A DNA stretch of 64,000 nucleotides from Azoarcus sp. Aa7 (GTDB lineage: Bacteria > Pseudomonadota > Gammaproteobacteria > Burkholderiales > Rhodocyclaceae). The notes below the pieces were generated by a model. The model was not told the DNA's origin. It saw only the letters and a list, made by a program, of their open reading frames with translations, and did no database searches. Each line of letters starts with the position of its first letter. Within the stretch, counting starts at the first letter, position 1. The stretch lies in assembly GCF_014822185.1 (NCBI RefSeq), contig NZ_QVLR01000041.1, forward strand, positions 1-64,000, read 5' to 3'. Position numbers and translations under genes: made by a program. Below are positions 16,619-59,093 of this stretch, piece after piece.

Positions 16619-16634
16619 TCGTCCGTTGAGACTA
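16619..16634. promoter_or_regulatory. Operator-like site 1, before the hsaC-ipd operon
   Basis: TCGTCC-gttg-AGACTA, an imperfect palindrome. The same 18-nt core ATCGTCCGTTGAGACTAA also occurs at about 29063 and 59022. Confidence 0.8.
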
Positions 16635-16815
16635 AGGGGCGCCACAGAAGGGGAAGATGCAGCTTGCCGGCCGCGTCCGGGCGTTGCCGATCGGACATGG
16701 ACCGCGTGCGGCCGGCGCACATCAGTCACTCCGACAAACGCGCCGGACCTTTCGCACATCGCTATTCGCGGACCCGCCTTGGTCTGAAGTGCGCGATCAA
16801 TTGCAAGGAAGCGGA

Positions 16816-16850
16816 CAAAAAAAGGCCGCTCACCCGAGGGCAGAGCGGCC
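16816..16850 (-). terminator. Rho-independent terminator of the aldolase operon
   Basis: GGCCGCT (16824-16830) and AGCGGCC (16844-16850) form the stem. On the minus strand it is followed by a run of seven T (complement of 16817-16823). It lies about 25 nt after the stop of the DUF35-MaoC gene. Confidence 0.88.
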
Positions 16851-16875
16851 GACAAGGAGAGGACCACGAGAGCAA

Positions 16876-17838
16876 CTACATATAAAGAATCACGAGATCG
16901 TTGATGACCGAGGGCCGTTCGTTGCCAACGACATGGGTCGTCACTTCCAGCGTCAGCTGCATGCCTTTCGCGAGCTTCTCGACCGACTTCACTCGCGCCC
17001 TTGCGTGGATGCGAGACCCCGCGGGCACCGGAGAAGGGAAGCGCAGGCGGTCGGAGCCGTAATTCACCATGTTGTTGAAGCCGGTGACCTCGAAACCGAG
17101 CGGCATCTTCAGGCGCGACTGCAGGATCTGCACCAATGCGCCATGTGCGATGGTTCCGCCGAAGGGGCTCTGTCTGGCAGCGCGCTCCGGGTCCGTGTGG
17201 ATCCAGTAGTCGTCGCCCGAGAGTTTCGCGAATTCGTCGATCAGCGCCTGGTCGACGACGACCTGCGTGCTCCACGGCGTGAAGACATCGCTCACCAGCG
17301 ACTTCATCGCCGCCTCGTCGTCGAATCGCACCTGCCGCACGCTGGTCGCGGCGATTTCCGCGGCGACTTTCGCTTCGGCCTCTGCCGCGAGCGCCTCGGG
17401 CGTGCTGTCGACACGGGCGGGAAAGTCTTTCTCCGCCGCCGTGAAGCGCAACAGCGTGGCACCATCCGCACGTACCTTGTCGAACACCGGCTTCACACGC
17501 ATGCCGATGCGAATCTCGGCTTCATCCAGTCCGACCAGTGTCGTGTTGATGCGCACGCCCTCGTCCAGTTCGACCACCGCGAGCTTCTGCGGCATCTCGT
17601 CGGCGAAGTCGGGCAAGGTCGGGATGCGCGCCACGGTGTAAGAGTAAAGCTGGCCCGCACCCGACACGTCCCGCCATTCGACGTCATGCGAAAAGCAGCG
17701 GTCGCAGTGGCGGCGCGGGTAGAAGATCCAGTGCCCGCACGCGTTGCAATGCGGGATCCGGAGCACGCCCTCCTTCAGGGCGTTCCAGAAGGGTGCCGAG
17801 ATCTCGGTCGGGGCCGGCATCGGTTTGTTCATCGACAT
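16876..17838 (-). CDS. DUF35 (zinc ribbon/OB-fold) - MaoC fusion protein, aldolase partner
   Basis: About 320 residues from the ATG at 17838, with AGGGAG upstream. The N-terminal part is a DUF35 protein: a zinc ribbon with Cys31, Cys34, Cys45 and Cys48, then an OB-fold to about residue 130. The C-terminal part is a MaoC-like hot-dog domain with YWIHTDPERA and GGTIAHGALVQIL. Steroid side-chain aldolases need a DUF35 partner, and MaoC proteins hydrate the enoyl-CoA substrate, so one protein may do both jobs. It begins 5 nt after the aldolase gene. In mycobacterial ChsH2 the MaoC domain comes first. Confidence 0.85.
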   Translation of the reverse strand: MSMNKPMPAPTEISAPFWNALKEGVLRIPHCNACGHWIFYPRRHCDRCFSHDVEWRDVSGAGQLYSYTVARIPTLPDFADEMPQKLAVVELDEGVRINTTLVGLDEAEIRIGMRVKPVFDKVRADGATLLRFTAAEKDFPARVDSTPEALAAEAEAKVAAEIAATSVRQVRFDDEAAMKSLVSDVFTPWSTQVVVDQALIDEFAKLSGDDYWIHTDPERAARQSPFGGTIAHGALVQILQSRLKMPLGFEVTGFNNMVNYGSDRLRFPSPVPAGSRIHARARVKSVEKLAKGMQLTLEVTTHVVGNERPSVINDLVILYM

Positions 17839-17843
17839 GTTCG

Positions 17844-19055
17844 TCACGCTCCCTGCAGGATCAAGGCGCCCTGCTCGCTCATCACGCCGCCGGTGCCGGA
17901 GACATAGACCCGGTCGCAACGCTTCAACTGACGATCGCCCGAGCGGCCCGCGAGCTGGGTGAAGGCCTCGATCACCTGCGACATGCCGCCGGCCGAACCG
18001 GCCTGGCCGAAGCTCAATTGACCGCCGTGCGTGTTCATCGGGAAATTCCCGCGCCAGGTCAGGTCGTGCTCGCGCACGAAGCGCATGCCCTCGCCCTTTT
18101 CGCAGAAGCCCGCGTCCTCGAGCGTCAGCAGCACGGTGATCGTGTAGCAGTCATAGATCTGCGCGGCATCGACGTCGCCCGGCTTGAGCCCGGCCATCTC
18201 GAAGGCGCGGCGCGATGCGGGGCCGATCGGCGTCTCGGTCATCTCGGCCGCATAGGACGGCGACTTGAACGCGAGGTGTTCGCCGAAGCCCGTGACGAAG
18301 GCCGGCCGGTTGCGCGCACGGGCCGCGACCTCCTTCGACGCGACGATCACTGCCGCCCCGCCCGCCACCGGCATCACGATCTCCAGCACATGCAGCGGGT
18401 CGGCCACCATCTTGCTCCCGAGCACCTCTTCGGCCGTCAGCGGCTTGCCGAAGAACATCGCATCGGGGTTCGTCAGCGCATTGGTGCGCTGGTCGACGGC
18501 GATCTTCGCCATCGCAGCCGGATCGTAGCCGTAACGGGCCGCATAGCGCTGCGCGATCATCGCGTAGCCGGTGTTCTGGCCCATGTGACCGTAGGGTAAA
18601 TCGAACTCCGCCTCGGGCGCGCCGAACGCAGTGCTGTGCCCGCCGAAACGCATCGCCCGCGCCATCCAGGCCGGATCCTCTTCGGGGCCGAAAGGCGCCA
18701 TGCGCGCCGGCAGCACGCACAGCACCGCCTGGCACAGGCCAAGTTCGATCGCCGCCGCTGCGCGCCAGATCATCCCGACTGAAGTCGTACCACCGAGATC
18801 GACCACCTCGGCGAAGTTGAGCCGCATCCCGAGGTATTCGGCGGCCATCGCCGGCACGAAGACGGAGGCCTCGTGGAACTGCGGCCCGTTGATGACCAGG
18901 CCGTCGAGATCCGACGCCTTCAACCCCGCATCCTGCAGTGCGCGCGCCGCGAGATCCGCCACCTGCTCGAGGTGGAACATGCGCGGCGCGGTCGCGTACT
19001 TTTCCGGCTTGTACTGCGCCGCCCCGACGATCGCGGCCTGTCCTTTCAGTCCCAT
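17844..19055 (-). CDS. Thiolase-fold steroid side-chain aldolase, Ltp2/SCP-x-like
   Basis: A 403-residue thiolase-superfamily protein of the lipid-transfer group. The usual nucleophilic cysteine position reads DLGGTTSVGM, so it is not a normal thiolase. Other signatures are IYDCYTITVLLTLEDAGFC and NTHGGQLSFGQAGSAGGM. Ltp2 cleaves a 17-hydroxy-C22 CoA ester to a 17-keto steroid and propionyl-CoA. Adjacency to a DUF35-MaoC gene supports this retro-aldol role. An operator-like site lies about 80 nt upstream. Confidence 0.85.
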   Translation of the reverse strand: MGLKGQAAIVGAAQYKPEKYATAPRMFHLEQVADLAARALQDAGLKASDLDGLVINGPQFHEASVFVPAMAAEYLGMRLNFAEVVDLGGTTSVGMIWRAAAAIELGLCQAVLCVLPARMAPFGPEEDPAWMARAMRFGGHSTAFGAPEAEFDLPYGHMGQNTGYAMIAQRYAARYGYDPAAMAKIAVDQRTNALTNPDAMFFGKPLTAEEVLGSKMVADPLHVLEIVMPVAGGAAVIVASKEVAARARNRPAFVTGFGEHLAFKSPSYAAEMTETPIGPASRRAFEMAGLKPGDVDAAQIYDCYTITVLLTLEDAGFCEKGEGMRFVREHDLTWRGNFPMNTHGGQLSFGQAGSAGGMSQVIEAFTQLAGRSGDRQLKRCDRVYVSGTGGVMSEQGALILQGA

Positions 19056-19134
19056 GTCAGCCCCTGTTCGCGATTCTTGCCATTGCCGTTACCGGCGATG
19101 GAGGAACGATGCCATAGGCCGAGGCAGCCGGTAA

Positions 19135-19150
19135 TCGTCCAGATCGACTA
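19135..19150. promoter_or_regulatory. Operator-like site 2, before the aldolase operon
   Basis: TCGTCC-agat-CGACTA. One position departs from the consensus (C instead of R at the start of the right half-site). Confidence 0.65.
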
Positions 19151-19260
19151 GGCGCGCCGATGTGTGGTGCCCGTCGGTATGAGTCTAGTCCGCATGAATG
19201 ATGCGTCGCCGGCGGGGTACCGGAAACTCCGTTCACGATCTACGCGACGGAGAACAGCAA

Positions 19261-19548
19261 GTGGAGAAGCTCATACCCTTGATCGGCCTCATCGGCCTGA
19301 TCGGTCTTGCCGGACTCGCCGGCATCAAGTCGCCGGTCGCACGCTCGCGTCCGGGCGCAGCGATTCGCCTGCTGGGGATACTCGGCCTGGCGGGCTTGAG
19401 CGGCATCTGGATTCCGGGGGCGGGCGCAATGGGAGCCTTCGGCGCGCTCGGACTGTGGAACCATCAGTCCGAGCGCCTCGCCCTGTGGGGGCGCCTGGGC
19501 TGGGCGGGGCTGTTCGGCGTGCCTTTCGCGCTGGCTGCCGTCGTCTAA
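19261..19548 (+). CDS. Small hydrophobic membrane protein
   Basis: About 95 residues from a GTG at 19261 preceded by CGGAGAA. A longer frame from 19198 is possible but lacks a ribosome-binding site. Leu/Ile/Gly-rich segments near residues 4-20, 35-55 and 75-93 suggest three membrane passes. It stands alone between the aldolase operon and the convergent GMC oxidoreductase. No family recognised; function unknown. Confidence 0.5.
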   Translation: MEKLIPLIGLIGLIGLAGLAGIKSPVARSRPGAAIRLLGILGLAGLSGIWIPGAGAMGAFGALGLWNHQSERLALWGRLGWAGLFGVPFALAAVV

Positions 19549-19566
19549 CCGGCTGGCGGAGACCGC

Positions 19567-21171: not shown

Positions 21172-21172
21172 C

Positions 21173-21865: not shown

Positions 21866-21889
21866 CGGAGGATTCCTCGTCGTCGGCAG

Positions 21890-22867: not shown

Positions 22868-23545
22868 TCAGGGCGTCGCTGCGAATCCGAGCGCGCCGAG
22901 CGCCATCCCCTGCAGGCAATCGAGGAACGCAGACTGGCTGACGCGTTCGGGCGCATCCTCCAGTGCCACCCGTATCGTTGCGCGCATGGCCATGCCCAGC
23001 ATGTAGGCGGCCATGTCGCTGTGGGCAGAATCGAGAGCGGGAACGTACAGCCTCACGAATGCCCCCCACGCCTCATCGACGTACTCACTGGTGTTTTGGT
23101 AGGGCCCGAGCCGGAGCCCGACCTGAAGCTCGGGGTGATACTTGAGGTGGAATTCGCGGTTCAGTCGCTGAAGGCGGAGTTCCTGCCGGATCATGTTGGC
23201 GAGGATCTCGCGCAGAGCGGCGGCCAGCGGCAGGCCGACGACACGCTCACGCAGCGCCGGTATATGGACCGTAGCCTCTTCGTGCAGGATGTGGTCGAAG
23301 GCGAGGCTGACGACCGCGTCCTTGTTGGGGAAATACTGGTAGATCGAACCGACGGCGACCCCGGAAACCTCGGCGAGGCGATTGACCGTCAAGGCGTCGG
23401 CCCCCTCCTTCTCCAGAATCTGCAGGCATGCTTCGACCAGCGCAGCCACAAGCGAGCGCGAACGCGACTGCGATGGCAGTTTGCGCGGCGCCGGCAGCGC
23501 GGCCTTCGCCTTCTCGTCTTCACGGATGGACTTCCTGTTTGCCAT
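22868..23545 (-). CDS. TetR-family transcriptional regulator
   Basis: About 225 residues from the ATG at 23545 (MANRKSIRED). The longer frame upstream has no family support. The helix-turn-helix lies near residues 40-75, with LTVNRLAEVSGVAVGSIYQYFPNKDAVV. The C-terminal ligand domain is longer than average and resembles regulators of fatty-acid or steroid CoA genes. It is divergent from the sulfatase-maturation operon and upstream of the hydratase-nitroreductase-GMC set, which are candidate targets. Confidence 0.85.
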   Translation of the reverse strand: MANRKSIREDEKAKAALPAPRKLPSQSRSRSLVAALVEACLQILEKEGADALTVNRLAEVSGVAVGSIYQYFPNKDAVVSLAFDHILHEEATVHIPALRERVVGLPLAAALREILANMIRQELRLQRLNREFHLKYHPELQVGLRLGPYQNTSEYVDEAWGAFVRLYVPALDSAHSDMAAYMLGMAMRATIRVALEDAPERVSQSAFLDCLQGMALGALGFAATP

Positions 23546-26730: not shown

Positions 26731-26739
26731 GGGGCGTGC

Positions 26740-26922: not shown

Positions 26923-27048
26923 TGTCTCTCTCCAGTCGGGCCTCTGACGGGCCTCTCTACTGACCGACTCCGGTCCGCCGATCCCTGTGCGGGATTAAGG
27001 CGGCCGGCTCTATATGACGCAACTTGCGCTGCCGGGTAGCGGCGCACA

Positions 27049-27064
27049 TCGTCCAAACGGACTA
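27049..27064. promoter_or_regulatory. Operator-like site 3, overlapping the ligase stop codon
   Basis: TCGTCC-aaac-GGACTA. The last three bases are the complement of the TAG stop of the acyl-CoA ligase. It could control the small gene at 26922. Confidence 0.7.
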
Positions 27065-28930
27065 TATCGACGCCCCCGTTGTCTCGCTGAACACAGGAAG
27101 CCCCGCTTTCGCCAGCGCCTCGGCGGAATATGGCAGATAGGTGCGCTCGGTCTCGCTGCGGACGTACAGCGGATCGTCGAACGCCGTGGGGTCGTACCCT
27201 TGGCGCTGCAGGTCGACCTTGCGCAGTTTGAACGTGGTCGTGAGGTCAGCCGCCTGCGACACGCGCACGAACAGGGGCGCCGCGTAGCGCGGCAGGCGCT
27301 CCTCGGTCAGCGCGTAGAAGCCGGCCGGATCGAAACTGCGCCCTTCCTGCATAACGATTGCCGCCATCCCTGCACGACCCTCGTGTTCGGGCACCTTCAC
27401 GCCATAGATGTTGATCAGCTCGGCGCCAGGATAGTCGGACAGCGCGTCAGCCACTTCCATTGTCGACACGTTCTCGCTCTTCCAGCGGTAGGTGTCGCCG
27501 ATGCGGTCGACAAAGTAGAAGTAGCCGTCCTCGTCGTAGCGCAGCAGGTCGCCCGAACTCCAGTACGCGTCGCCCTCGACGAAGACGTTGCGCAGGATCT
27601 TCCTCTCCGTGGCATCCGCCGAGGTGTAGCCCTCGAATCGTCCGCCCCCGATCTCGGGATGATCGACGATATAGCCGATGCCCTCCCCCACCTCGCCCGG
27701 CTGGCACAGCAGATAGAAGCCGCGCGCGTCGCGCACGTGCTCGCCGCATTCGACGTCGTAGCGCACGAGGCGGAAATTCGTCTTTTCCCAATACGGCACG
27801 CGGCCGCAGGAACCGATGCGGTTGTCGACGTTGATCAGGTTGGTGTTCGCCTCCGTCGATCCCCATCCTTCGAAGATCTGGATCGGACCGAAGCGCTCCA
27901 CCCAGCGCTGCCAGGATTCGGGCGTCAGGCCCGCCCCCATCATGCAGCGCAAGCCGTGGTCGCGGTCGCGCTCCGTTGCGGGCAGGTTGAGCAGATAACG
28001 GCAGATCTCGCCGATGTACTGGCACACGGTGATGCCGTAGCGGCGCACGTCGTTCCAGAACTCGCGCGTGCTGAATTTCCGCCGCACCACGATCGTCGCA
28101 CCGGCCTTCAGCGCGGTGGACGTGACCGAGGTCGCCGCCGCACCGTGGTAAAGCGGCAGAAAGCAGTAGAAGACGTCATTCGGGCCGGCGTCGACGGTGT
28201 CGACCATCACGTCGCCCGACGACATCCAGCGCATATGGCTGTAGCGCGCGGCCTTCGGCAGGCCCGTGGTGCCTGACGTGAAGATCAGCAGGGCCGGAGT
28301 CTCCGCAGTCAGCGGCGCGCGCAGTTCGCGTGGAAAGGCGTTGCGCGGCGCGCGCTCGAGCGCATCCGCGAAATCGGTGTCGCCGGAGCATCGCAGGCTC
28401 GCCGGGGCCGGTTTCTCGGTATCCGGCAGCAGCCATTGCATGACATCCAGGATCCCGTCCGTCGCGGCGAAATTCGCCAGGCACTCCTCGCCGATCAGTA
28501 CCGCCTTGGCGCCGGTGGTCTCGATCGCATGGGCCAACGGCCTGCCGCTCACCTGAGTGTTAATGAATGCTGCAACGGCGCCGAGCTTGGCCAGGCCGAA
28601 CCAGGCGAAGAAGAATTCGGGCCGGTTCTCGATCGCCATCGCGCAGACGTCCCCCGGACCCAGTCCGCGGGCGTGCATCGCATGTGCGTATTGATTGGCG
28701 CGCGCATCGACTTCGGCATAGCTGAAGTGGGCATCGCCGTAGACCAGGAAAGGTCGCCGGCCTTGCACCGCCGCCTGCGCCTCGACGCGGTCGGCGATCG
28801 TATACAGGTCGCGCGGTTTGATCAGTGCACTGCTCTGCGCGCGGCGATCCAGCTTGGCCTGGGTCTCATCCCGCGACACGATGTCCATCGATGGCTGCGA
28901 TGCGTTGCGGGCCGCGATGCCGTTATCCAT
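27062..28930 (-). CDS. Acyl-CoA synthetase, FATP/very-long-chain type
   Basis: About 622 residues from the ATG at 28930 (MDNGIAARN). The AMP-binding P-loop is FTSGTTGLPKAARYSH. The FATP-type signature is IFEGWGSTEANTNLI with a following NVDNRIGSCGRVP. Later come YWSSGDLLRYDEDGYFYFVDRIGDTYRWKSEN-type residues. FATP-like ligases (FadD17/FadD6 group) activate steroid side-chain carboxylates such as bile acids. Two operator-like sites lie 130-210 nt upstream. The longer frame to 29179 is not credible. Confidence 0.86.
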   Translation of the reverse strand: MDNGIAARNASQPSMDIVSRDETQAKLDRRAQSSALIKPRDLYTIADRVEAQAAVQGRRPFLVYGDAHFSYAEVDARANQYAHAMHARGLGPGDVCAMAIENRPEFFFAWFGLAKLGAVAAFINTQVSGRPLAHAIETTGAKAVLIGEECLANFAATDGILDVMQWLLPDTEKPAPASLRCSGDTDFADALERAPRNAFPRELRAPLTAETPALLIFTSGTTGLPKAARYSHMRWMSSGDVMVDTVDAGPNDVFYCFLPLYHGAAATSVTSTALKAGATIVVRRKFSTREFWNDVRRYGITVCQYIGEICRYLLNLPATERDRDHGLRCMMGAGLTPESWQRWVERFGPIQIFEGWGSTEANTNLINVDNRIGSCGRVPYWEKTNFRLVRYDVECGEHVRDARGFYLLCQPGEVGEGIGYIVDHPEIGGGRFEGYTSADATERKILRNVFVEGDAYWSSGDLLRYDEDGYFYFVDRIGDTYRWKSENVSTMEVADALSDYPGAELINIYGVKVPEHEGRAGMAAIVMQEGRSFDPAGFYALTEERLPRYAAPLFVRVSQAADLTTTFKLRKVDLQRQGYDPTAFDDPLYVRSETERTYLPYSAEALAKAGLPVFSETTGASI

Positions 28931-29063
28931 GCATTTGTCTCCGTTATTTCTGTTCTCTCGCCCCCTCGTGCGCTGCGATGTCACGTGGGGACAGGAGGGC
29001 CGGCGGTGTGAGACACCGGCACTCTGACGGAGCCAATCATTCACCCGGCGGAAAAGTGGAACA

Positions 29064-29079
29064 TCGTCCGTTGAGACTA
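29064..29079. promoter_or_regulatory. Operator-like site 4, before the FATP-like ligase
   Basis: TCGTCC-gttg-AGACTA. Its centre is 60 bp from site 5, which is in inverted orientation. The same pair arrangement occurs before the MFS operon. Confidence 0.8.
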
Positions 29080-29123
29080 ATGCGCGTGACGGCGGCGGAC
29101 CGGCCCTTGGAGTACCCGGACCA

Positions 29124-29139
29124 CCGTCTGAATGGACGA
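29124..29139. promoter_or_regulatory. Operator-like site 5, between the ligase and the folE2 remnant
   Basis: CCGTCT-gaat-GGACGA, read in reverse as TCGTCC-attc-AGACGG. Its neighbour site 4 is inverted relative to it. Confidence 0.75.
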
Positions 29140-29195
29140 TGATGCGGCCGGCGTGGCGGCGGACGATGCACACGAGCACTCACCGGAACGACACG

Positions 29196-29596
29196 ATGAA
29201 ACTCAACGACATCCCGGACGTGCAGTCCGCACCCGACGCGCGCGCGATATCGATCGACAAGGTCGGCATCCGCTCGATCCGCCACCCGGTGCGCACAACC
29301 AGCGCTCGCACGTGACCGTCACGGCAACGTTGCGCGAGCACGTGTGGATCGAGGAGATCATCGCCCTGGTCGAAGGCCTCGCCTCGTGCGAGCTGTACGG
29401 CCTCCTGAAGCGCGCGGACGAGAAGCTCGTCACCGAGCGCGCCTACGACAACCCGAAGTTCGTCGAGGATACCGTCCGCGACATCGCCGGCGCGCTGGGA
29501 GCGGACCCGCGCATCGGCCACTTCGTTGTCGAGGCCGAGAACTTCGAATCCATCCACAACCATTCCGCCTACGCCCTGATCGAGCGCACGGCCTGA
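29196..29596 (+). pseudogene. folE2: folE2 (GTP cyclohydrolase FolE2) pseudogene with internal deletion
   Basis: The N-terminal end reads [10 protein letters not shown] then [14 protein letters not shown] and shifts to a stop about 39 codons in. A second frame continues [13 protein letters not shown]...REHVWIEEI through [21 protein letters not shown] and ends with [19 protein letters not shown]. Both ends are plain FolE2 sequence, but roughly the central 120-130 residues are missing. The two parts meet in different frames around the short GGTGCGCAC sequence, which suggests microhomology deletion. Not functional. Confidence 0.85.
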
Positions 29597-29598: not shown

Positions 29599-30237
29599 TC
29601 AGTTGCGCTCGAGCACGTGACGGACCGCGTCCATCACTTCCCGCTTCAGGAGGGCGTGGTCCACCTCGATGCCGCGCACGGCGCGGGCGGTGATTCCGAA
29701 AAGGATCGCGCTGATCAGTTCGTACTGCGCTGCAATCCGCGCCTCCAGGGCCTCGCCCGCCAGCCCTGCGTTGACCAAGCGTAGACTCTGGTAAGCGCTT
29801 TCGCGCGCGCGCCGGTCGAGCGCATGCACACGCGCGGAAATGCACGGATTGCGTGCGCTCTCCGCGAGAATCTCCAGACGCAGCCGCGAGTTTTCCGGAT
29901 CCGCGTAATTGAGGGCGATGTCACCCGAGCGTGCGACGATCGCGTCCACAACGTTGTGTTCGAGGCGCACCGCGTCGTGTATTTCGAGCAGGGCGTCGAG
30001 CTCCGCCTCCGCGATCGCGGTGATGATCTCTTCTTTATTCTTGAAGTAGTAGTAGATGTGGCCGGCGCTGACGCCCGCCACCGCGGAGATGTCCGCGATG
30101 CTCGCGCCGTGGAACCCCTTGTCGCGGAAGCACTCCTCGGCCGCCTCAAGGATCTGCCGGCGGCGAGCCCCCGGCCCGCTCCCCGGCGCATCGCCCGCTT
30201 CCGCCTGGACCAGTCCGGTGTGCGCGTCGAGCTTCAC
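29599..30237 (-). CDS. TetR-family transcriptional regulator next to hsdA
   Basis: A 212-residue regulator. The helix-turn-helix (ARRRQILEAAEECFRDKGF, ADISAVAGVSAGHIYYYFKNKEEII) lies at residues 25-70. The C-terminal domain is helical. It starts 46 nt after the stop of hsdA on the same strand, so it may be cotranscribed and control hsdA or the wider steroid regulon. It is a candidate to bind the TCGTCY-N4-RGACKA sites; the sequence does not prove this. Confidence 0.88.
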   Translation of the reverse strand: MKLDAHTGLVQAEAGDAPGSGPGARRRQILEAAEECFRDKGFHGASIADISAVAGVSAGHIYYYFKNKEEIITAIAEAELDALLEIHDAVRLEHNVVDAIVARSGDIALNYADPENSRLRLEILAESARNPCISARVHALDRRARESAYQSLRLVNAGLAGEALEARIAAQYELISAILFGITARAVRGIEVDHALLKREVMDAVRHVLERN

Positions 30238-30283: not shown

Positions 30284-31051
30284 TCAGAAGCGCTCCGGGC
30301 GGGTCAGCGCATCCATGCCGCCGTCGACGAACACCACCGTGCCGTGCATGAAGCTCGCCTGCTCCGACTGCATGAAACCAACCACCCGGGCGATTTCGTC
30401 GGGGCTGCCGTTGCGGCCCAGCGGCGAAACAAAGTTCCGGATCGCCTCGCCGTAGCGCGGATCCGACAGCGAGGCCTGCAGCAGCGGCGTCTCGACCGCG
30501 CCGGGCGCAACGACGTTCAGGCGAATACCACGGCGGCCCCATTCGACCGCCTTGCGGCGCGCGAACACGGTGATCGCGTACTTAGAACCGGCATACGCGG
30601 CCTGCGGATTGGCCATGGCGTCGGCCTGCGCCTTCGCCGCCTCCTCGTCGCGCGCGAGCATCAGCTCGACCATCGGTAGCTTGTCGATGCCGGGGTGGGC
30701 CGAAGCCACCGAGCCTATCAGCAGCGCTGCGGATTTGTCGCCCCGTGCGAGGGCGTCGCCCAAACCGTCGACGAGCTCGCTCATGCCGAAATAATTGACG
30801 GAGACGATCAGCCCGCAGGAGCTCGCCGTCGGCCCCAGGCCGGCGCAGCACACCAGTCCGTCGAGCACGCCGTTGCAGGCCTCGAGCGCGGCGGCGACCG
30901 CTGCCTGCCGCCCCTCGGTGGTGGAGAGATCGGCCACGATGTCCGCATCGCGCCGGTCGATGCCGATCACGCGATGTCCGGCCTGCTGCAGCTGGGCGCT
31001 GACGGCGGCCCCGATGCCCGACGCCGAGCCGGTAACGACGGTTACAGTCAT
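30284..31051 (-). CDS. hsdA: 3-alpha-hydroxysteroid dehydrogenase, HsdA type
   Basis: About 255 residues from the ATG at 31051. It is a classical SDR with the cofactor motif GSASGIG (residues 8-14) and catalytic Ser114, Tyr153 and Lys157. The stretches IGIDRRDADIVADLSTTEGR, SVNYFG and ETPLLQASLSDPRYGE closely resemble Comamonas testosteroni HsdA, as recalled from memory. It oxidises the 3-alpha-hydroxyl of steroids to the ketone. An operator-like site lies 80 nt upstream, shared with the divergent Cache gene. Confidence 0.88.
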   Translation of the reverse strand: MTVTVVTGSASGIGAAVSAQLQQAGHRVIGIDRRDADIVADLSTTEGRQAAVAAALEACNGVLDGLVCCAGLGPTASSCGLIVSVNYFGMSELVDGLGDALARGDKSAALLIGSVASAHPGIDKLPMVELMLARDEEAAKAQADAMANPQAAYAGSKYAITVFARRKAVEWGRRGIRLNVVAPGAVETPLLQASLSDPRYGEAIRNFVSPLGRNGSPDEIARVVGFMQSEQASFMHGTVVFVDGGMDALTRPERF

Positions 31052-31128
31052 GCAATGCTCCTTGTGATGACGACGATGCCGGGAATGGTCCTTTGCCAGA
31101 GTATCCGGTCCCCGTCGACGCTGCGACA

Positions 31129-31144
31129 TCGTCCAGCCGGACTA
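31129..31144. promoter_or_regulatory. Operator-like site 6, between hsdA and the Cache protein gene
   Basis: TCGTCC-agcc-GGACTA. It sits midway in a 159-nt divergent promoter region, so one site could control both directions. Confidence 0.8.
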
Positions 31145-31210
31145 CGAACGCGCTCGCGGACCGCCCTACAATGAGCCTCGCCGCAATCTTCTTTGGGAGG
31201 ACGTCGCGAC

Positions 31211-32165: not shown

Positions 32166-34625
32166 ATGAACACCCCCCACGCCCTGTCCAGAACCGACGC
32201 ACTGGTCGCAGTGCTCGCCCGCATGCTCATTCGCTGGCGCAAACCGCTGGGGGCCTTCTTCCTGCTTGTGACGATCGGCCTCGGCTACTCGGCCCTGAGC
32301 ACCCGGCTGGATCCCGGCTTCAACAAGCTGATTCCCCTCAAGCACGAATACATGGCGGCCTTTCTGAAGCATTCGACCACTTTCTCGGGGGCCAACCGGA
32401 TCCTCGTGAACGTGCAGTGGAAGGGCGAAGGCGACATCTACAATGCCGAGTTCCTGCCGCTCCTGCGCAAGGTGAACGATGAAGTCTTCTTCACCCCTGG
32501 CGTGAACCGCGCCAGCGTGCGCTCGATCTTCACGCCGAATGTGCGATATATCGAGGTGACGGAAGAAGGCTTCACGGGCGACGTCGTGATTCCCGCGCGC
32601 TTCGAGACCGACGAGCGGGGACTCAATCAGGTCCGCGCCAACGTCGCGAAGTCCGGCCAGATCGGCCGCCTCGTCGCCAATGATCTGAAATCCGCCCTCG
32701 TGCAGGCCGACCTGCTGGAGGTCAACCCCGACACCGGCGCAAAGCTCGACTACGCCGAGGTCGCCCGCAAGCTCGAGGCCATCCGCACCCAATTCGACAG
32801 CGACAAGGTCGACATCCAGATCGTGGGCTTCGCCAAGGTCATGGGCGACGTGATGGAAGGCCTCTCCACCGTCGTCGCCTTCTTCGCCATCGCCTTCGTG
32901 ATCACCTCGCTGCTGCTGTGGGCGTACTCGCGCTCGCTCAAGCTCACCGTGCTGGCCATCGCCGTGGCGCTGCTGCCGGTGATCTGGCTGCTGGGCCTGC
33001 TGCCCCTGCTCGGCTACGGCATCGATCCGATGTCGGTGCTGGTACCCTTCCTGATCTTCTCGATCGGCGTTTCCCATGCGGTGCAGATGACCAACGCCTG
33101 GAAGCAGGACGTGCTCGCGGGCGAGACCGCGATGGAGGCAGCCGAGGGCGCGTTCCGCAAGCTCGCCGTACCGGGCATCATGGCCCTGCTGGCCAACGCG
33201 CTCGGCTTCCTCGTGATCATGGTGATCGACATCCCCATCGTGCATGAACTGGGCCTCACCGCTTGCCTGGGCGTCGGGCTGATGATCATGACCAACAAGA
33301 TGTTCATGCCCATCATCCTGTCGCACCTTCACCTCGAGCGCATGGCGCTGAACCAGCCGGTGGACAACAAGGAAAAGCACCCGGCCTGGTGGAAACTGTC
33401 GGCCCTGTCGGAGCCGCGCCCGGCACTGGTCACCTTCGGCGTGATGCTGGCGCTCCTCGCCGCCGCCACCTATTACTCGCGCCAACTGCAGACCGGCGAC
33501 ATCGGCAGCGGCGTGCCGGAACTGCGTGCCGACTCGCGCTACAACCAGGACAACGAGACGATCATCAGCAACTACTCGATTGGCATGGACGTGCTGTCAG
33601 TCTATGTCGAGACCGAGAACCTGACCGAGGCCTGCCTCAACTGGGAGGTCATGAACGCCGTCGAGCGCTTCGATTTCCACATGCGCGGCGTCGATGGAGT
33701 CCAGTCAGTGAATACCGTCGCCGGGCTGGCGAAGCTCTTCGCCGCCGGCAACAACGAGGCCAATCCGCGCTGGGCCGCCCTGCAACGCACCGAAGCCGCG
33801 CTGCGCACCGGCAGCCGCGCCGCAAACCCGGAGCTGGGCTTCAACTCGGCCGGTTGCAAAACCATCCATCTGGCCGTCTATCTCAACGATCACCAGGGCC
33901 CGACGCTCAAGCACGTGGTCGATGAGGTGAGCAAGTTCATCGCCGAGGACAAGACCCCCAACGTCACCTTCCGCCTCGCGGGCGGCAATGCCGGCGTGGC
34001 GGTGGCGACGAACGAGGCCGTCGAGCGGGCCGAGGTGCAGATGCTGGCCTCGATCTTCGCGTCGATCTCGTTCCTGTGCTGGCTCACCTTCCGCTCCTGG
34101 CGAGCGGTGTTGTGCGTGGTCGTGCCGCTGACGCTCGTGACGATCATGTGCAATGCGCTGATGGCCTTGCTCGGCATCGGCCTCAAGGTCGCCACCCTGC
34201 CGGTGATTGCGCTGGGCGTGGGCGTAGGTGTCGACTACGGCATCTACATCTACGAGCGCATGCAGCACGAGCTGGCCGATCGCGGCTACACCCTGCGCGA
34301 GGCCTTCTACGAGGCGATGCGCCAGCGCGGTACGGCGGCGGTCTTCACGGCGGTGACGATGTCGATCGGGGTAGGCACCTGGGCGTTCTCGGCACTGAAA
34401 TTCCAGGCCGACATGGGCGTGCTGCTCGCCTTCATGTTTTTGGTGAACGTGCTCGGAGCGATCTTCCTGCTCCCCGCCCTTGCCTGCTGGCTTGGCGTGG
34501 GCCGCCGCGAAACTGCCGGCGCCGCTCAGCCCTCGCCCGCAGCTTCCGCCCGTGCCGAAGCGTTCGGGACGCGAATGAACCGCAGCACCGACAAAGGCGT
34601 GGTGGCGCAGCCCCTGCGCCCCTGA
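32166..34625 (+). CDS. RND superfamily / MMPL-type transporter
   Basis: An 819-residue inner-membrane protein. One TM segment near residues 28-45 precedes a large periplasmic loop. TM segments cluster near residues 230-390, then a second loop and a second cluster near 620-780. The motif GVGVGVDYGIYIYERMQ in the second half is typical of MMPL/RND-type proteins. DUF1302 and DUF1329 genes, commonly found with such exporters, lie at 50-53 kb. Direction of transport and substrate are unproven; steroids are likely by context. Confidence 0.88.
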   Translation: MNTPHALSRTDALVAVLARMLIRWRKPLGAFFLLVTIGLGYSALSTRLDPGFNKLIPLKHEYMAAFLKHSTTFSGANRILVNVQWKGEGDIYNAEFLPLLRKVNDEVFFTPGVNRASVRSIFTPNVRYIEVTEEGFTGDVVIPARFETDERGLNQVRANVAKSGQIGRLVANDLKSALVQADLLEVNPDTGAKLDYAEVARKLEAIRTQFDSDKVDIQIVGFAKVMGDVMEGLSTVVAFFAIAFVITSLLLWAYSRSLKLTVLAIAVALLPVIWLLGLLPLLGYGIDPMSVLVPFLIFSIGVSHAVQMTNAWKQDVLAGETAMEAAEGAFRKLAVPGIMALLANALGFLVIMVIDIPIVHELGLTACLGVGLMIMTNKMFMPIILSHLHLERMALNQPVDNKEKHPAWWKLSALSEPRPALVTFGVMLALLAAATYYSRQLQTGDIGSGVPELRADSRYNQDNETIISNYSIGMDVLSVYVETENLTEACLNWEVMNAVERFDFHMRGVDGVQSVNTVAGLAKLFAAGNNEANPRWAALQRTEAALRTGSRAANPELGFNSAGCKTIHLAVYLNDHQGPTLKHVVDEVSKFIAEDKTPNVTFRLAGGNAGVAVATNEAVERAEVQMLASIFASISFLCWLTFRSWRAVLCVVVPLTLVTIMCNALMALLGIGLKVATLPVIALGVGVGVDYGIYIYERMQHELADRGYTLREAFYEAMRQRGTAAVFTAVTMSIGVGTWAFSALKFQADMGVLLAFMFLVNVLGAIFLLPALACWLGVGRRETAGAAQPSPAASARAEAFGTRMNRSTDKGVVAQPLRP

Positions 34626-34686: not shown

Positions 34687-35388
34687 TCAAGGCACCTGCC
34701 GGCCGGATTCCTCCACCCCCTCGCGCGAGTTGTTGATCGCACGCGCGATGCGCACCAGCATCGGCACCAGCGATGGCGACTGCAGCAATTCCGGGCGCTC
34801 TTCGACGAGGGTCGCGAGGATGCTGCGCATGCCGCGCACGAGCATGAATGACGCCAGTTGCGTGTCGGCCTCGCCAACCACGTCCGCATGCTGCTTGAGC
34901 AGCATTTCCGCGCTCGCGACGAGCTGCTCGGAGGTGCGCGAGCCGCGGCCCAGCCCCTGCGCGCGGCCGAACTGCATGTGGCGAGCGTAGCGCTGGTAGA
35001 AGTCCCGCCCCAGCGAGTACAGGCGTGTTTCGGTGCGCACCGTATTGCGGAACAGCGCCTGCAGCATCTCGTCGAGCGACTTGCGGTGCAGGCGGAAGAG
35101 TTCCGGTGACGCCGCCTCGGACTCCTCGTCCATCACGCGCTTGCTGATCTCGATGAGGATCGCCTCCTTGTTCGGGAAGTACTGATACACCGCACCGACG
35201 GAGACGCCGGCCCGCGCCGCGATCTTGCGCGTCGTCACCGCATCGACCCCCTGGACCCGCAGGATCTCGCTCGCCGCCTCGAGGATGGTTTCCACCGTGA
35301 AGCGTGCTCGCGCCTGGGACGGCGTGGCGCGCGGTGCAGCGCTGTCGGCGCCCGCAGGCGTTGTCGCCCGCCCTGCCCCCTTGCTCAT
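34687..35388 (-). CDS. TetR-family transcriptional regulator
   Basis: About 233 residues from the ATG at 35388 (MSKGAGRATT), with AAGGGAGA upstream. The helix-turn-helix is VTTRKIAARAGVSVGAVYQYFPNKEAIL, near residues 50-77. The ligand domain is helical. It is divergent from the thiolase-led beta-oxidation operon that starts at 35660, the natural target. A spaced inverted repeat (CAGTGCT...AGCACTG) at 35477-35506 may be its operator. It carries no copy of the TCGTCY-N4-RGACKA motif. Confidence 0.87.
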   Translation of the reverse strand: MSKGAGRATTPAGADSAAPRATPSQARARFTVETILEAASEILRVQGVDAVTTRKIAARAGVSVGAVYQYFPNKEAILIEISKRVMDEESEAASPELFRLHRKSLDEMLQALFRNTVRTETRLYSLGRDFYQRYARHMQFGRAQGLGRGSRTSEQLVASAEMLLKQHADVVGEADTQLASFMLVRGMRSILATLVEERPELLQSPSLVPMLVRIARAINNSREGVEESGRQVP

Positions 35389-52055: not shown

Positions 52056-52083
52056 TCTGTTTACTCCCTCGAGATCGGTCAGA

Positions 52084-53469
52084 TCAGTTGCCGCCGGCGC
52101 GGATCGCGGCCGGAGTGAACATGTCCCGCGTCATGTCGCCCTTGTTCAGGATCGGACCGGTTTCGCGTTCCTGGAAAAGGTTGTAGCCGACGTAACCACC
52201 CGAGTTGAGGTCGTGGTAGAAGCTGCTGCCGGCATGCCACGCGTTGAGATCGAAGGCGTAGTAGTGGTTGATGAAGGCGTGCTGCCAGAGTTGCCCGCGC
52301 TGGTCGTAGAAGTCCGACATCGAGGCCTGCCAGGTGTCCTCGTCGATGAACATCACGCGCCTGCCGAAGACGTGGCGGAAGCCTTCCTTCAGGTTCCCTT
52401 CCAGCACCCACACCCGGCGCAATTCATAGCGCATGAGGTCCGGATTGGCGTGCCCCTTCTTGAGGAGATCCGCATATTTGACGCTCTTGGCGTGGATGCG
52501 GTAGGCATTGGCGGGGATGAACATTTCGCGCTTGCCGAGCACTTTCCACTCGTAGCGGCTCGGATCGCCGTTCATCAGGCGGTCCTGGTCGATGGTCATC
52601 TTGCCGGAGGTTCCGCTCAGGGGCGTATCGAAGCCGAAAACCGGCAGCTGGCGCACGCGCCGGGTTCCCGGGTCGTACTGCCATGCGAGGCGTTTGCCCT
52701 GCGCAAAATTGACCGGCTCCTGGGTGGCAGTCAGGCCGCCGCGTTCGCGTTCCGGAAGCAAGGTCGCGGTCCGCGCAAAAGCCATCACCCCATCCATCGG
52801 CTTGCCGATCTCGTCCGGTTGCGTGACGACGTTGTAATTGCGGTTCCACTGCCGTCCCCACGACGATACGGTGCCGTCGGATCCGACGTCGGCGATGTCG
52901 CGGGTTGTGTTTTCCGTGAAGGCGCGGTAGGGGAAGTTCATGTTCGCGAGCAGTTCCATCGCCCCCTTCGGGACCGGGAAGCCGATCGCGCCCTTGTATC
53001 CCTTGTAGCCCAGGCCGTCATCCACGAGTTCGGCTTCGAGCGCATTCTTCTTCGCGATTTCACAGACGAAGTCGGGATACCGGAAATCTCGACGCGTCGT
53101 ATAGACGGGAATGCGAAAGGTCTCGGGATACTTCTGGAACATCGCCTTCTGCCCGTCGCTGAGCTTGTCGGCATGCTTGCTCATGTTCGACGCGGTGATC
53201 TCGTAGAGCGGCTTGTCGTCCGGATAGACGTCCACGGGATGCTGCCCGACGTGCGGGGTGTATTTCACTCCCGGGGGAGTGCCCAGCCACTTGCCCGAAA
53301 AGGCCGGAATAGTGCCGTCCTTGTTGCCGGCCGCCTCGGCGCCGACGCAGGTCAGCTCCTTGCCCAGCTTGGCTGCCTCAGCTTCGCTGATCTTGGCGAC
53401 CGCTGGTCCCGCAGTCACAGAGAGCGCTACTGTCGCCATGACCGGTATCCAGATACGGTTCTTCATCAT
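52084..53469 (-). CDS. DUF1329 periplasmic protein
   Basis: A 461-residue protein with a signal peptide (MATVALSVTAGPAVA-KI) and typical DUF1329 blocks: LTCVGAEAAGNKDGTIPAFSGKW, RREFRYPDF-like and DRNQ/RGQLWQHAFINHYYAFD. The fold resembles LolB-type lipid carriers. It is first in a two-gene operon with DUF1302; the pair could shuttle hydrophobic substrates such as steroids across the periplasm. An operator-like site lies 129 nt upstream of the start, linking it to the steroid regulon. Confidence 0.87.
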   Translation of the reverse strand: MMKNRIWIPVMATVALSVTAGPAVAKISEAEAAKLGKELTCVGAEAAGNKDGTIPAFSGKWLGTPPGVKYTPHVGQHPVDVYPDDKPLYEITASNMSKHADKLSDGQKAMFQKYPETFRIPVYTTRRDFRYPDFVCEIAKKNALEAELVDDGLGYKGYKGAIGFPVPKGAMELLANMNFPYRAFTENTTRDIADVGSDGTVSSWGRQWNRNYNVVTQPDEIGKPMDGVMAFARTATLLPERERGGLTATQEPVNFAQGKRLAWQYDPGTRRVRQLPVFGFDTPLSGTSGKMTIDQDRLMNGDPSRYEWKVLGKREMFIPANAYRIHAKSVKYADLLKKGHANPDLMRYELRRVWVLEGNLKEGFRHVFGRRVMFIDEDTWQASMSDFYDQRGQLWQHAFINHYYAFDLNAWHAGSSFYHDLNSGGYVGYNLFQERETGPILNKGDMTRDMFTPAAIRAGGN

Positions 53470-53779
53470 CGATGTCTCCTGCCTGTTCGGCGTCTTTATT
53501 CTGTGTTTCGGTTAAACACTTGTGTAGATGCCATCGGTCGTTGTTTTACGGTCCCGCGCATCTGTTGCCATTTTTTTCGTGTTGACCAGCCCTCACATCG
53601 TCCGTTGGGACTAAACGGTGCTGACTATGCCCAAAGTAATAGTCCTCGCGGCACAGTCAATCACGGTCGGCGCTGGGTGACGTAGCTCGACATGCATGCC
53701 GACCGATCGATATCGACGCGACCGGAAAGAGTTTTCGGTAGTCCGTTCCACACTCGGCTCGGCGGCTCATGTCGCCTCC
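53470..53779. other. Promoter region of the DUF1329 operon
   Basis: A 310-nt region between the DUF1329 start and the end of the thiolase operon. It contains operator-like site 7 and a TTTTTTTCGTG T-rich patch near 53570. No gene. Confidence 0.7.
53598..53613. promoter_or_regulatory. Operator-like site 7, before the DUF1329/DUF1302 operon
   Basis: TCGTCC-gttg-GGACTA, almost identical to site 1. Confidence 0.8.
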
Positions 53780-54982: not shown

Positions 54983-55061
54983 GTCTGCTTTGCTCCCTGG
55001 TTTCGTCTCGAATGGGTGGGCCGGCTTGGGCGCCGGCCCTGCTGCATGGGGGAAAGGACCT

Positions 55062-55523: not shown

Positions 55524-55533
55524 TGCGCCCCCC

Positions 55534-56352
55534 TCAGGCGTGCTGCGAGCTGACGGAGAGCACTTCGCCCGTCATGTAGGAGGCGTAGTCGCTGGCGAGG
55601 AACACCATGACGTTCGCAACTTCCCACACTTCGGCCGCGCGCCCGAAGGCTTCGCGGCTCGTGAGCTGCGCGAGCAGCTCCTCGCTGGAGGCCTTTTTCA
55701 GGAAGTCGTGCAGCGCGATCGAGGGCGATACGGCGTTGATGCGTACGCCGTGTTCGGCGGCTTCCAGCGCCGAGCAGCGGGTAAGCGCCATCACGCCGGC
55801 CTTGGCGGCCGCGTAGTGCGCCTGGCCCTTCTGCGCGCGCCAGCCCAGCACGGACGCGTTATTGACGATCGCGCCGCGCCCGCGCCGCTCCATGTGCGGC
55901 AGCATCGCCCGCGTCATGCGGAAGGTGCCCGTCAGCGTGATGTCGAGGACGCGGGTCCATTCCTCGTCGCTCATCTCGGTGACGCGCTTCTCGCCACCCA
56001 GGCCGGCGTTGTTGATCAGGACGTCGACGCCGCCGAGCCTATCCTCGGCCGCCGCGACCAGCGCCTGGACCTCCTCCTCGTTCGTGACGTTGCACAGCTG
56101 GCCCCAGACGTCCTGCAGGCCGGTTTCGGCCTTCAGCCGCGCGACCGCCTCTTCCAGGCGTCGCGAGTGGATGTCCGAGATCATCAGCGCGCGGCCCCCC
56201 TCCTCGGCGCACTTGCGCGCTGCGGCAAAGCCGATGCCGGCCCCCGCTGCGGCGGTGATGAGGACGGACTTGCCGGCAAGCAGCTGATGGCCGGGCACGT
56301 AGGAAGGCACTTGTCTCACGGCGTAAACCTCGAAGGATGGATACGCCGCCAT
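55534..56352 (-). CDS. ipdF: SDR, IpdF-like (HIP-CoA reductase type)
   Basis: About 272 residues from the ATG at 56352. The start is chosen because an operator-like site lies 27 nt upstream and the longer frame overlaps it. The cofactor motif is AAAGAGIG, followed by ISDIHSRRLEEAV, NNAGLGGEK and the catalytic serine in NNASVLGWRAQ with YAAAK. The YMTGEVLSVSSQHA C-terminus is characteristic of IpdF, which oxidises the 5-hydroxyl of the indene CoA intermediate. It is away from ipdABC here. Confidence 0.82.
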   Translation of the reverse strand: MAAYPSFEVYAVRQVPSYVPGHQLLAGKSVLITAAAGAGIGFAAARKCAEEGGRALMISDIHSRRLEEAVARLKAETGLQDVWGQLCNVTNEEEVQALVAAAEDRLGGVDVLINNAGLGGEKRVTEMSDEEWTRVLDITLTGTFRMTRAMLPHMERRGRGAIVNNASVLGWRAQKGQAHYAAAKAGVMALTRCSALEAAEHGVRINAVSPSIALHDFLKKASSEELLAQLTSREAFGRAAEVWEVANVMVFLASDYASYMTGEVLSVSSQHA

Positions 56353-56378
56353 TCTTAGGGTCGCCCGGCAGGGCCGCA

Positions 56379-56394
56379 TCGTCAAAACGGACGG
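56379..56394. promoter_or_regulatory. Operator-like site 8, before ipdF
   Basis: TCGTCA-aaac-GGACGG, 27 nt upstream of the ipdF start. Two positions differ from the consensus. Confidence 0.6.
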
Positions 56395-56407
56395 GATGCG
56401 GGGAGTC

Positions 56408-57289: not shown

Positions 57290-57305
57290 GCGATGCGATC
57301 CAATG

Positions 57306-58874
57306 TCACGCCAGCGCGGGCGGGCGGCGGTCGGCCCACGGCGCGGCCCTTTCCAGCTGCGCGGCCAGCGCGATGAGCCGCGCCTCCCCGCCGTAGGGGG
57401 CGGCGAACTGCGCGCCGATCGGCAGCCCGTCCGCGCTCCAGTGCAGCGGAACCGACATGGCCGGGTGACCGCTCATGTTGAACATCGCGGTGAAGGGCGA
57501 GGCGAGCACGGCGCGCTTCGCGAAATCGTCGAACGGCTGGTCCAGCGACAGCTCGCCCAGCTTCGGGGGCAGTGCGGCGGTGGTGGGCGAGAGGATCAGG
57601 TCGTAGCGCCCGAACACCTCGTCGAAGATCCGCCCCGCCTGATCGAACACCGAACGCGCCGCATAGAGCTGTTCGGCAGAGTATTTCTGCGCCTTTTGCT
57701 GGGAGAGCCAGTTGATCGGCTCGAATTCGTCCTCGCGCGCCTGACGCCCGAGGAGTTTCTCCCGCGCCCGCACCGTGTACAGCATGCCGGTGGCGGTCAT
57801 CACGCCCATGCCCCCGAACATCTCGAGGAAGGGCAGTTGCTGCAGCGAGAGCGGTTCGACGTGGTGGCCGAGCCCGGCGCACAGGGTCGCCGCCTTCTGC
57901 ACGGCTTCGAGACACTCGGGATGCACGCCCATGCCGAAGAGATTGGTCTCGAAGAGGCCGATCTTGAGCCCCTTCGGGAACTTGCCGAGCGCTTTCAAGA
58001 GGTCCGAGGTGGCGGGCGCCGCACGCGTTCCCGCCTCCGGGCCCTGGCTCAGCTGCATCAGCAGCGCGGTATCGCGCACGCTGCGGCTGATGACGTTGTG
58101 AGCCGAAAGTCCCATCCAGCCTTCCAGCGCCCCCGGCCCCATCGGGATCAGGCCGCGGCTGGGCTTGAGCCCGAACAGCCCGCAGTGCGAGGCCGGGATG
58201 CGGATGGATCCGCCGCCGTCGCTGGCATGCGCAACGGGCACCACGCCCGCCGCAACGGCTGCGGAGGCGCCGCCGGACGAGCCGCCCGAGCTGCGGCCGA
58301 GGTCCCACGGGTTGCGCGTGGGGCCGAACAGACGCGATTCGGTGGTCCCGGTCTGGCCGAACTCGGGTGACGCGAGCTTGGCGAAGATGTTCAGCCCCGC
58401 CGCCTTGTAGCGCTGCACCAGCGTCGAGTCGTGGTCGGCGAGCGCATCCTTGAAGAAGGCGCAGCCGTTGGTGGTCACCGTCCCCTTCATCGCGACGGAC
58501 AAGTCCTTCAGTGCGAAGGGCACGCCGGAAAGCGGCGGACGGGCCTCGCGTTCGGCCTTGCCGGCTGCGTCGAGTGCCCTCGCCTGCTCGCGCGCAAGAT
58601 CGAAGTGCGGGACCGTCAAGGCGTTGATGGCCGAATAGGCTTCCGCCCGCGCGATGGCCGCCTCCAGCGCCTCGCTCGGCTTCACGTCGCCACACCGGAT
58701 CAGGCGCGCGATCTCGGTCGCATCCCAGCGCTCGTACTCGGGCAGCGGCAGCGAGGATTGCGGCCGCGCCGCAGCCGGTGCGCTGACGCCCAGCCCCATC
58801 GCCGCAGCGCCGCCCAGCGCAGCGCCCGCTCTCAGGAAGTCACGGCGCCCCTGCGCCACGTCGTGTTGATCCAT
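57306..58874 (-). CDS. Tat-exported amidase-signature hydrolase
   Basis: A 522-residue protein. The twin-arginine signal [12 protein letters not shown] with an alanine-rich tail indicates periplasmic export by Tat. The amidase-signature triad is Lys123 (FALKDLS), cis-Ser199 (GGSSGGAS) and Ser223 ([10 protein letters not shown]), with FAAH-like spacing (76 and 24). Such enzymes cleave amide bonds. In a steroid cluster, removal of glycine or taurine from a conjugate is an attractive but untested role. It heads the operon with the SDRs and thiolase. Confidence 0.85.
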
Positions 58875-59022
58875 TCCACTTCCCCCAGATAATCCGTGCA
58901 GGCATCCGTAGCCCGGCAGTTCGCAAACGATAGCAGCGGCGCGCGCCTCGCAAGCGCTCTACCCTGCAAGAAAAGCCGCCGCCAAGGCCGATGCATTGTC
59001 CGAAGCTCACCGTGCAGGCTCA

Positions 59023-59038
59023 TCGTCCGTTGAGACTA
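59023..59038. promoter_or_regulatory. Operator-like site 9, divergent amidase/MFS promoter
   Basis: TCGTCC-gttg-AGACTA, identical in its core to sites 1 and 4. Confidence 0.82.
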
Positions 59039-59077
59039 AACACTTCATCATCGGCGACGGCGGCGCGGCAGCGCGAT

Positions 59078-59093
59078 TCGTCTGAATGGACGA
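59078..59093. promoter_or_regulatory. Operator-like site 10, divergent amidase/MFS promoter
   Basis: TCGTCT-gaat-GGACGA, the most symmetric of the ten. It is the inverted partner of site 9. Confidence 0.8.

Follow-up and report, generated by a model that had tools for sequence, protein, structure and literature searches.

In mycobacteria, many steroid-degradation operons have in common an operator of KstR or KstR2. Both regulators are TetR repressors (PMC6678751). In Comamonas testosteroni, the LuxR-type protein TeiR/TesR is described as a positive regulator on which many steroid genes depend (PMC6678751, PMC6895838, PMC8700777, PMC13101464), and tesR-like genes are cited as confined to this species (PMC6678751, PMC6895838). 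No description of the TeiR/TesR DNA site was found in the open-access literature searched. A steroid cluster of Pseudomonas stutzeri Chol1 contains two TeiR-like genes (C211_RS11295), and deletion of one delays cholate use according to unpublished data cited in PMC8399759; the passages of that paper on these regulators name no DNA site and describe the regulation of bile-acid degradation in Proteobacteria as largely unknown. In the sphingomonad C. tardaugens, the LuxR-type gene EGO55_13855 is induced by progesterone (PMC12239570). Here, we analyze a 64,000-nucleotide stretch of Azoarcus sp. Aa7 (the window) that belongs to a steroid-degradation island, in which a palindromic motif recurs upstream of steroid genes. 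The copies are very probably operators of a class II transcription activator and not of a repressor, with two LuxR-type proteins of the same island, LuxA and LuxB, as their likeliest readers.

Results

Motif and island

The original prediction, made from the letters of the window, described ten copies of TCGTCY-N4-RGACKA, nearly all in noncoding DNA and too similar and well placed to be chance. All ten positions hold the motif, seven without mismatch (16619, 27049, 29064, 31129, 53598, 59023, and 59078), 19135 and 29124 with one mismatch, and 56379 with two. The core common to 16619, 29064, and 59023 was confirmed, although it measures 19 nucleotides and not the 18 predicted. With independent gene calls, 10/10 copies start outside genes, that at 27049 overlapping the final 5 nucleotides of a FATP-like gene. 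Of the 341,788 bases examined, 82% fall within called genes.

Across the 5.39-Mb genome, the loose pattern TCGTCY-N4-RGACKA gave 25 matches vs. 26 for a reversed control. This lack of enrichment weighs against a genuine operator and would suit a chance or coding-bias artifact of GC-rich DNA; it also means that the predicted consensus was too short. Once the outer bases were added, CATCGTCC-N5-GACKA gave 12 matches vs. 0 in the control, 11 of the 12 being on the contig of the window (C41) or on a second contig of the same steroid island, outside the window (C30), and CATCGTCC-N4-GGACKA with up to two mismatches gave 355 vs. 145. A matrix from the ten sites and similar ones describes the full site as a 20-bp palindrome, CATCGTCC-N4-GGACKATG. 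At ≥12 bits, it matched 53 times in the 341,788 bases vs. once for the reversed matrix, a count that includes 17 seed sites, comes from stretches chosen partly because they hold matches, and allows palindromes to score on both strands. Distinct exact loci numbered 18 genome-wide, of which 13 were intergenic on C41 or C30 and five lay inside predicted genes. Exact matches on C1, C24, C59, C60, and C62 were set aside as lying inside predicted genes, as were the window matches 53216 and 36261. Given the matrix counts, the intergenic placement of all ten window sites, and the conservation of sites in two further genomes of the genus (G012 and G013) and in the 45%-GC stretch around the LuxR gene of a Vibrio plasmid, we give practically no credence to chance and regard it as refuted, in agreement with the original prediction. 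We conclude that the motif is a genuine operator, suitably positioned and conserved.

Contig C41 measures 147 kb, and its first 64 kb make up the window. On TetR matches of 100, 96, 92, and 85% to A. anaerobium, A. toluolicum, A. toluclasticum, and A. evansii, the genus was taken to be Aromatoleum. Outside called genes of more than 80 amino acids, 25 sites scored ≥16 bits, 14 on C41 and 11 on C30 (sites are named from here on by the first position of the 20-bp palindrome). Matrix matches below 16 bits, including 89817, or inside such genes were left out; 92102 was kept although it lies within a called open reading frame (ORF) of 40 residues, and the overlapping sites 94304 and 94318 were each counted. 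In G012, the counterparts of C41 and C30 lie together within the 160 kb examined and adjoin; the two contigs form one steroid island. All but two of the 25 sites (29122 and 64245) have a counterpart in place in this genome. The suggestion that one shared site would coordinate operons spread over the island is supported; the predicted regulon is larger than first thought, covering more of C41 as well as C30.

Placement relative to promoters

The matrix sets the orientation of each site, with the intact half GGACGATG placed to the right, towards the gene. Past GGACGATG, the 25 sites showed a single, sharp A/T peak at positions 22 to 26 (88 of 125 letters vs. a mean window of 45), which none of 20,000 rotations reached. 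The best −10-like hexamer (GAAAAT, AATAAT, GACAAT, GATACT, and similar) starts at offset 21 in 15 of the 25 sites and at 20 to 22 in 22 of them. If this hexamer is counted as −12 to −7, the palindrome is centered at −42.5 from the predicted transcription start, that is, near −41.5/−42.5 and at a fixed distance from −10, as for a class II operator. The gene-proximal half is nearly invariant and the distal half is mostly TAGTC or TCGTC, a difference that the matrix-set orientation favors. The same geometry was found in 37 matrix matches from eight other sources, namely the Vibrio plasmid, two Cupriavidus, Caballeronia, Burkholderia arboris, G342, G152, and G303. Oriented by the matrix alone, with no intergenic filter and with a few homologous between sources, these again had their best offset at 21 (mean score 4.68 vs. 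2.13; 0/10,000 rotations).

Diverging promoters sometimes have two sites, one per direction, as at 29062/29122, 59021/59076, and 93070/93141, and at 13417/13462 and 27273/27316 on the Vibrio plasmid. A site for each direction and a fixed spacing to −10 are what an activator beside RNA polymerase would need, whereas a repressor would have no evident reason for them. The sites end ~20 bp upstream of the −10-like hexamer, and the overlap with the core promoter or start that a KstR-like TetR repressor would call for was not found. Fixed spacing between motif and hexamer might also be expected of promoters for an alternative sigma factor, with the conserved half and the −10-like hexamer as its two elements. 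However, the motif is a 20-bp dyad, its GGAC begins 28 bp upstream of the hexamer, which is too distant for a −35 element, and the hexamer resembles the −10 of sigma-70, making such promoters extremely unlikely.

Candidate regulators

LuxA and LuxB, each with a GerE helix-turn-helix, are encoded on C30 amid steroid-type genes that are contiguous with the hsa region in G012. Among 17 genomes of the genus, a LuxA ortholog (82 to 100% identity) occurs in exactly eight (G000, G001, G002, G003, G005, G008, G012, and G013), and LuxB-like proteins (40 to 41% to LuxA) occur in the same eight. By hand count, these genomes hold two (G002), six (G013), or eight (each of the others) copies of CATCGTCC-N4-RGACTA. 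This pattern is absent from the other 9/17 genomes, G010 showing a near miss with C for R, and these LuxA-free genomes have zero to six matches each to a looser pattern. A GerE match at E 0.01 was obtained for all eight LuxR proteins aligned, in which N-T-A-R-x-x-L-R-x-x-F-x-K-x-G is invariant within the helix-turn-helix (N354 to G368 of LuxA), and weak PDB matches (E 0.0009 to 0.0045) were all to the C-terminal parts of such regulators, VraR and VpsT among them. LuxA and/or LuxB, whose distribution and the promoter geometry fit, are most likely the activators that would bind these sites. Shortly downstream of luxA lies an incomplete duplicate of the LuxA C-terminal part (C30 47305-47943; 92% over residues 164 to 387), which among the 17 genomes is listed for G000 alone.

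The original prediction had named the TetR gene at 29599 as a candidate regulator, which neither the ortholog distribution nor the placement of the sites at −42.5, an activator position, supports. Such a TetR would bind the sites and repress the regulon until released by a steroid catabolite, as KstR in mycobacteria; a palindrome of ~20 bp suits TetR proteins, and the gene sits behind site 31127, common to it and an hsdA-like SDR gene, as would fit autoregulation. The repressor gene does not, however, occur wherever the operators do. Orthologs (85 to 100%) are present in 6 of the 17 genus genomes. None was found in the whole genomes of G013 and G002, both of which keep conserved sites; their best relatives are 42% and 37% identical, and such relatives also occur in site-free genomes. 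The cluster stretches of G013 that were examined contain neither this TetR gene nor hsdA. Outside Aromatoleum, where whole genomes were searched for G342, G152, and G303 only, no ortholog was found in the site-bearing stretches of Vibrio, Cupriavidus, Caballeronia, Burkholderia, G342, G152, and G303, the single partial match being one of 43 residues in G342 (E 4e-4 in a search at E 1e-3). As the sites also lie at −42.5 and not over the −10 or the start, repression by TetR 29599 is highly improbable, and this protein is most likely a member of the putative regulon and not its master.

Another regulator of the island is a very unlikely reader too, be it the AraC-type protein of C30 70337-71341 or the TetRs at 22868, 34687, and C41 74060. 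The AraC-type gene lies next to a strong site and has conserved counterparts in G012, G002, and G013, but in the non-Aromatoleum stretches it had a single 31% match, in G342, and none on the Vibrio plasmid (E 1e-5), and proteins of this type usually bind direct repeats and not palindromes. None of the three TetRs was found in the non-Aromatoleum stretches at E 1e-5.

Occurrence outside Aromatoleum

Across the order, LuxA had a match in 21 of 399 sampled genomes, the closest being in G342, G152, and G303. LuxR relatives 35 to 57% identical lie within site-bearing stretches of these three genomes and of Cupriavidus necator, Caballeronia, Burkholderia arboris, and Vibrio alfacsensis. In a class-wide search with LuxB, 15 of 369 genomes matched at E 1e-20, with close relatives only in G000 and G152 and the others at 22 to 36%. 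A LuxA relative was present in 58 plasmid records, seven of which were examined; matrix matches vs. control were 7/0 in C. necator C39, 6/0 in Caballeronia SBC2, 4/0 in B. arboris, and 3/1 in the V. alfacsensis stretch.

The complete 174-kb V. alfacsensis plasmid (NZ_CP140104.1) had 12 matrix matches vs. 5 in the control, 11 of the 12 being intergenic, upstream of operons read as steroid-type from annotation, and one inside a gene. Operons behind these sites include FATP ligase, DUF1329, flavin reductase, SDR-MaoC-thiolase, acyl-CoA dehydrogenase, VOC/hsaC, and etfB-etfA-luxR, among others. The sites, their placement, and the −10 spacing are conserved across genera and between Beta- and Gammaproteobacteria, and within the genus the sites are codistributed with the LuxR genes.

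On the same plasmid, a large steroid-degradation gene set lies beside exosortase/EPS (exopolysaccharide) genes. One of its sites and C30 96361 of Aromatoleum have CATCGTCCTTTTGGACGT in common, each upstream of an MBL-fold gene. Homologs of cysD-cysN occur inside the Aromatoleum steroid island (C41 70238-73046), in the Vibrio steroid plasmid, and in G342, where they are found beside a LuxR relative and two sites.

LuxR homologs from genus g65 (29 to 33% to LuxA) were considered as TesR and rejected: in the seven neighborhoods examined (six spanning 20 kb and one 11.7 kb), no site reached 12 bits, and the matches to C41/C30 included no hsa-type gene. All seven proteins have S-T-V-R in place of N-T-A-R.

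Several observations weigh against LuxA and LuxB as activators acting through these sites. LuxA falls below the Pfam GerE cutoff (19.7 vs. 23.5), whereas LuxB passes it (26.3). In the tested orientation, five sites (19133, C30 42752, 93070, 96297, and C30 96361) have no good −10 at that offset from the palindrome. Since the LuxR genes and the sites belong to one island, their co-occurrence in the genus is partly linkage; likewise, LuxR matches served to select the loci outside Aromatoleum, so that the presence of a LuxR gene there is not itself evidence, and only the sites, their spacing, and the absence of the TetR are informative. The loose pattern did not exceed the control in the whole genomes of G342, G152, and G303 (39/65, 11/32, and 9/15). 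The matches in C. necator N-1 (3/0) were all weak (14.7 to 15.6 bits), a Sphingobium LuxR relative had two weak matches (one control), and plasmid pNL2 of N. aromaticivorans had no site within 41 kb of its LuxR relative (0 matches, 3 control). Finally, binding by LuxA and/or LuxB and the steroid signal are inferred from sequence data, as are activation and the points where transcription starts. In the three whole genomes, the neighborhoods of the LuxR genes hold matrix sites. The argument there is the clustering of the distinct loose-pattern loci: in G152, 7 of 10 are no more than 100 kb from a LuxR gene; in G303, 4 of 8 are on the LuxR contig; and in G342, 7 are within 45 kb of a LuxR gene, most others lying farther away.

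Features of the window

The coordinates of the sites, with their predicted −10 hexamers, and of the regulator genes are given in Table 1. The gene at 15657-16547 is HsaC-like by NCBIfam, with a score under the curated cutoff. Counterparts of site 19133 score 15.9 in G012 and G013, and that of site 19184 scores 20.4 in G012. The 60-residue ORF was missed by the gene caller; a 59-residue counterpart was called in G012. Beyond the G012 counterpart of site 59076, the first gene called corresponds to 60574-61404. Also in G012, a gene block without C41/C30 matches (G012:C1 2084640-2092235), lying between the counterparts of 34687-35295 and 32166-34625, looks like an insertion.

Table 1. Predicted activator sites and associated genes in the window, with the two LuxR-type genes on C30
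Feature	Coordinates (strand)	Context	Predicted −10	Remarks
Predicted activator site	16617..16636 (-)	Upstream of hsaC-led operon (gene 15657-16547, -)	16591-16596, GAAAAT	Conserved in G012, G013
Weaker site	19133..19152 (-)	Upstream of thiolase/lipid-transfer-like gene 17844-19055 (-)		No clear −10 at usual offset
Weak eleventh site	19184..19203 (+)	Pairs with 19133, facing opposite way		16.0 bits; absent from original prediction
Small ORF, 60 residues	26740..26922 (-)	Downstream of strong site 27047, right after FATP-like gene
Site	27047..27066 (-)	Overlaps end of FATP-like gene; 60-residue ORF downstream	27021-27026, CAAGTT	Conserved in G012, G013
Site	29062..29081 (-)	Upstream of FATP-like acyl-CoA ligase 27062-28930 (-)	29036-29041, AATGAT	Conserved in G012, G013
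Paired right-facing site	29122..29141 (+)	Towards unassigned ORF ending at 29596	29162-29167, GACGAT	No counterpart in G012
TetR regulator	29599..30237 (-)			Pfam TetR_N
Site	31127..31146 (-)	Upstream of hsdA-like SDR 30284-31051 and TetR 29599-30237 pair	31100-31105, GATACT	Conserved in G012
Site	53596..53615 (-)	Upstream of DUF1329 gene 52084-53469 (-)	53570-53575, AAAAAT	Counterparts in G012, G013
Site	56377..56396 (-)	Upstream of SDR 55534-56310 (-)	56351-56356, AAGAAT	Conserved in G012
Site	59021..59040 (-)	Upstream of amidase-family gene 57306-58874 (-)	58995-59000, GACAAT	Conserved in G012
Paired right-facing site	59076..59095 (+)	Upstream of MFS transporter 59183-60523 (+)	59115-59120, GACAAT	Conserved in G012
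LuxA, LuxR-type (GerE helix-turn-helix)	C30 44339-45502	Outside window		387 residues
LuxB, LuxR-type (GerE helix-turn-helix)	C30 86704-87903	Outside window		399 residues

Discussion

We propose that a steroid or steroid catabolite would activate LuxA/LuxB through their N-terminal part, and that activated LuxA and/or LuxB would then bind the sites. With the palindrome centered at −42.5, a dimer bound there would occupy the −35 region and contact RNA polymerase. The regulator would switch on operons for ring degradation, side-chain degradation, and transport, probably one operon for F420 biosynthesis, and also the operons holding luxA and luxB, giving positive feedback. Such positive autoregulation of the LuxR genes is likely given the sites ahead of luxR-holding operons in both Vibrio and Aromatoleum. 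On the Vibrio plasmid, site 141440 precedes etfB-etfA-luxR; in Aromatoleum, the weak site C30 89817 (12.0 bits; 18.5 in G012) precedes etfB-etfA-luxB, and site C30 42752 precedes an aldehyde dehydrogenase gene followed by luxA.

F420 biosynthesis probably, though not surely, belongs to the predicted regulon. Site C41 64245 faces npdG-cofE-cofD-cofC-cofGH (C41 64354-70146) with a weak −10; it has no counterpart in G012, and the same 18 letters are present in G001 and G008. At a second F420 locus, npdG-cofC-cofGH (C30 64213-67958), the upstream site 64068 faces a divergent acyl-CoA dehydrogenase gene. F420-type LLM oxidoreductases are encoded on both C41 and C30.

More broadly, it seems reasonably likely that CATCGTCC-N4-GGACKATG is a steroid-response box common to Beta- and Gammaproteobacteria, read by LuxR-type activators that travel with horizontally moving steroid islands and plasmids, and that further modules, which may include F420 biosynthesis, enter the regulon when they gain the box at −42.5. 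If true, the regulon of such a steroid-degrading proteobacterium could be read from sequence. With a defined site, a fixed promoter geometry, and two candidate activators, the question of how bile-acid degradation is regulated is directly testable, and regulon prediction in other genomes should become possible. Promoters with the site are offered for steroid biosensors, and there is a hint that F420 biosynthesis and steroid catabolism might be connected in a betaproteobacterium.

Like TeiR/TesR of C. testosteroni, LuxA and LuxB are LuxR-type and encoded in a steroid cluster, and they may be kin of that steroid activator. TeiR/TesR differs in that it is also reported as a polar kinase, a role on which the present results do not bear. 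Two TeiR-like genes in one cluster, as in P. stutzeri Chol1, parallel the occurrence of LuxA together with LuxB. In sphingomonads, LuxR-type regulators are likewise found beside LLM genes (C. tardaugens EGO55_13855 and N. aromaticivorans pNL2 SARO_RS18850); the latter has steroid-type genes beside it and shows 32% identity to LuxA over 92%, but pNL2 differs from the Aromatoleum island in the lack of nearby sites noted above. The likeness to KstR/KstR2 is the common operator, whereas geometry and distribution here indicate a LuxR-type activator. A lux box is centered at −42.5, and both it and other class II sites resemble the present site as a 20-bp dyad at that position upstream of −10. Unlike in the lux box, the half-site here is GGACGATG, and no luxI or quorum signal is implied. 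The site itself is new to us, but activators acting through class II operators are a well-known kind of system.

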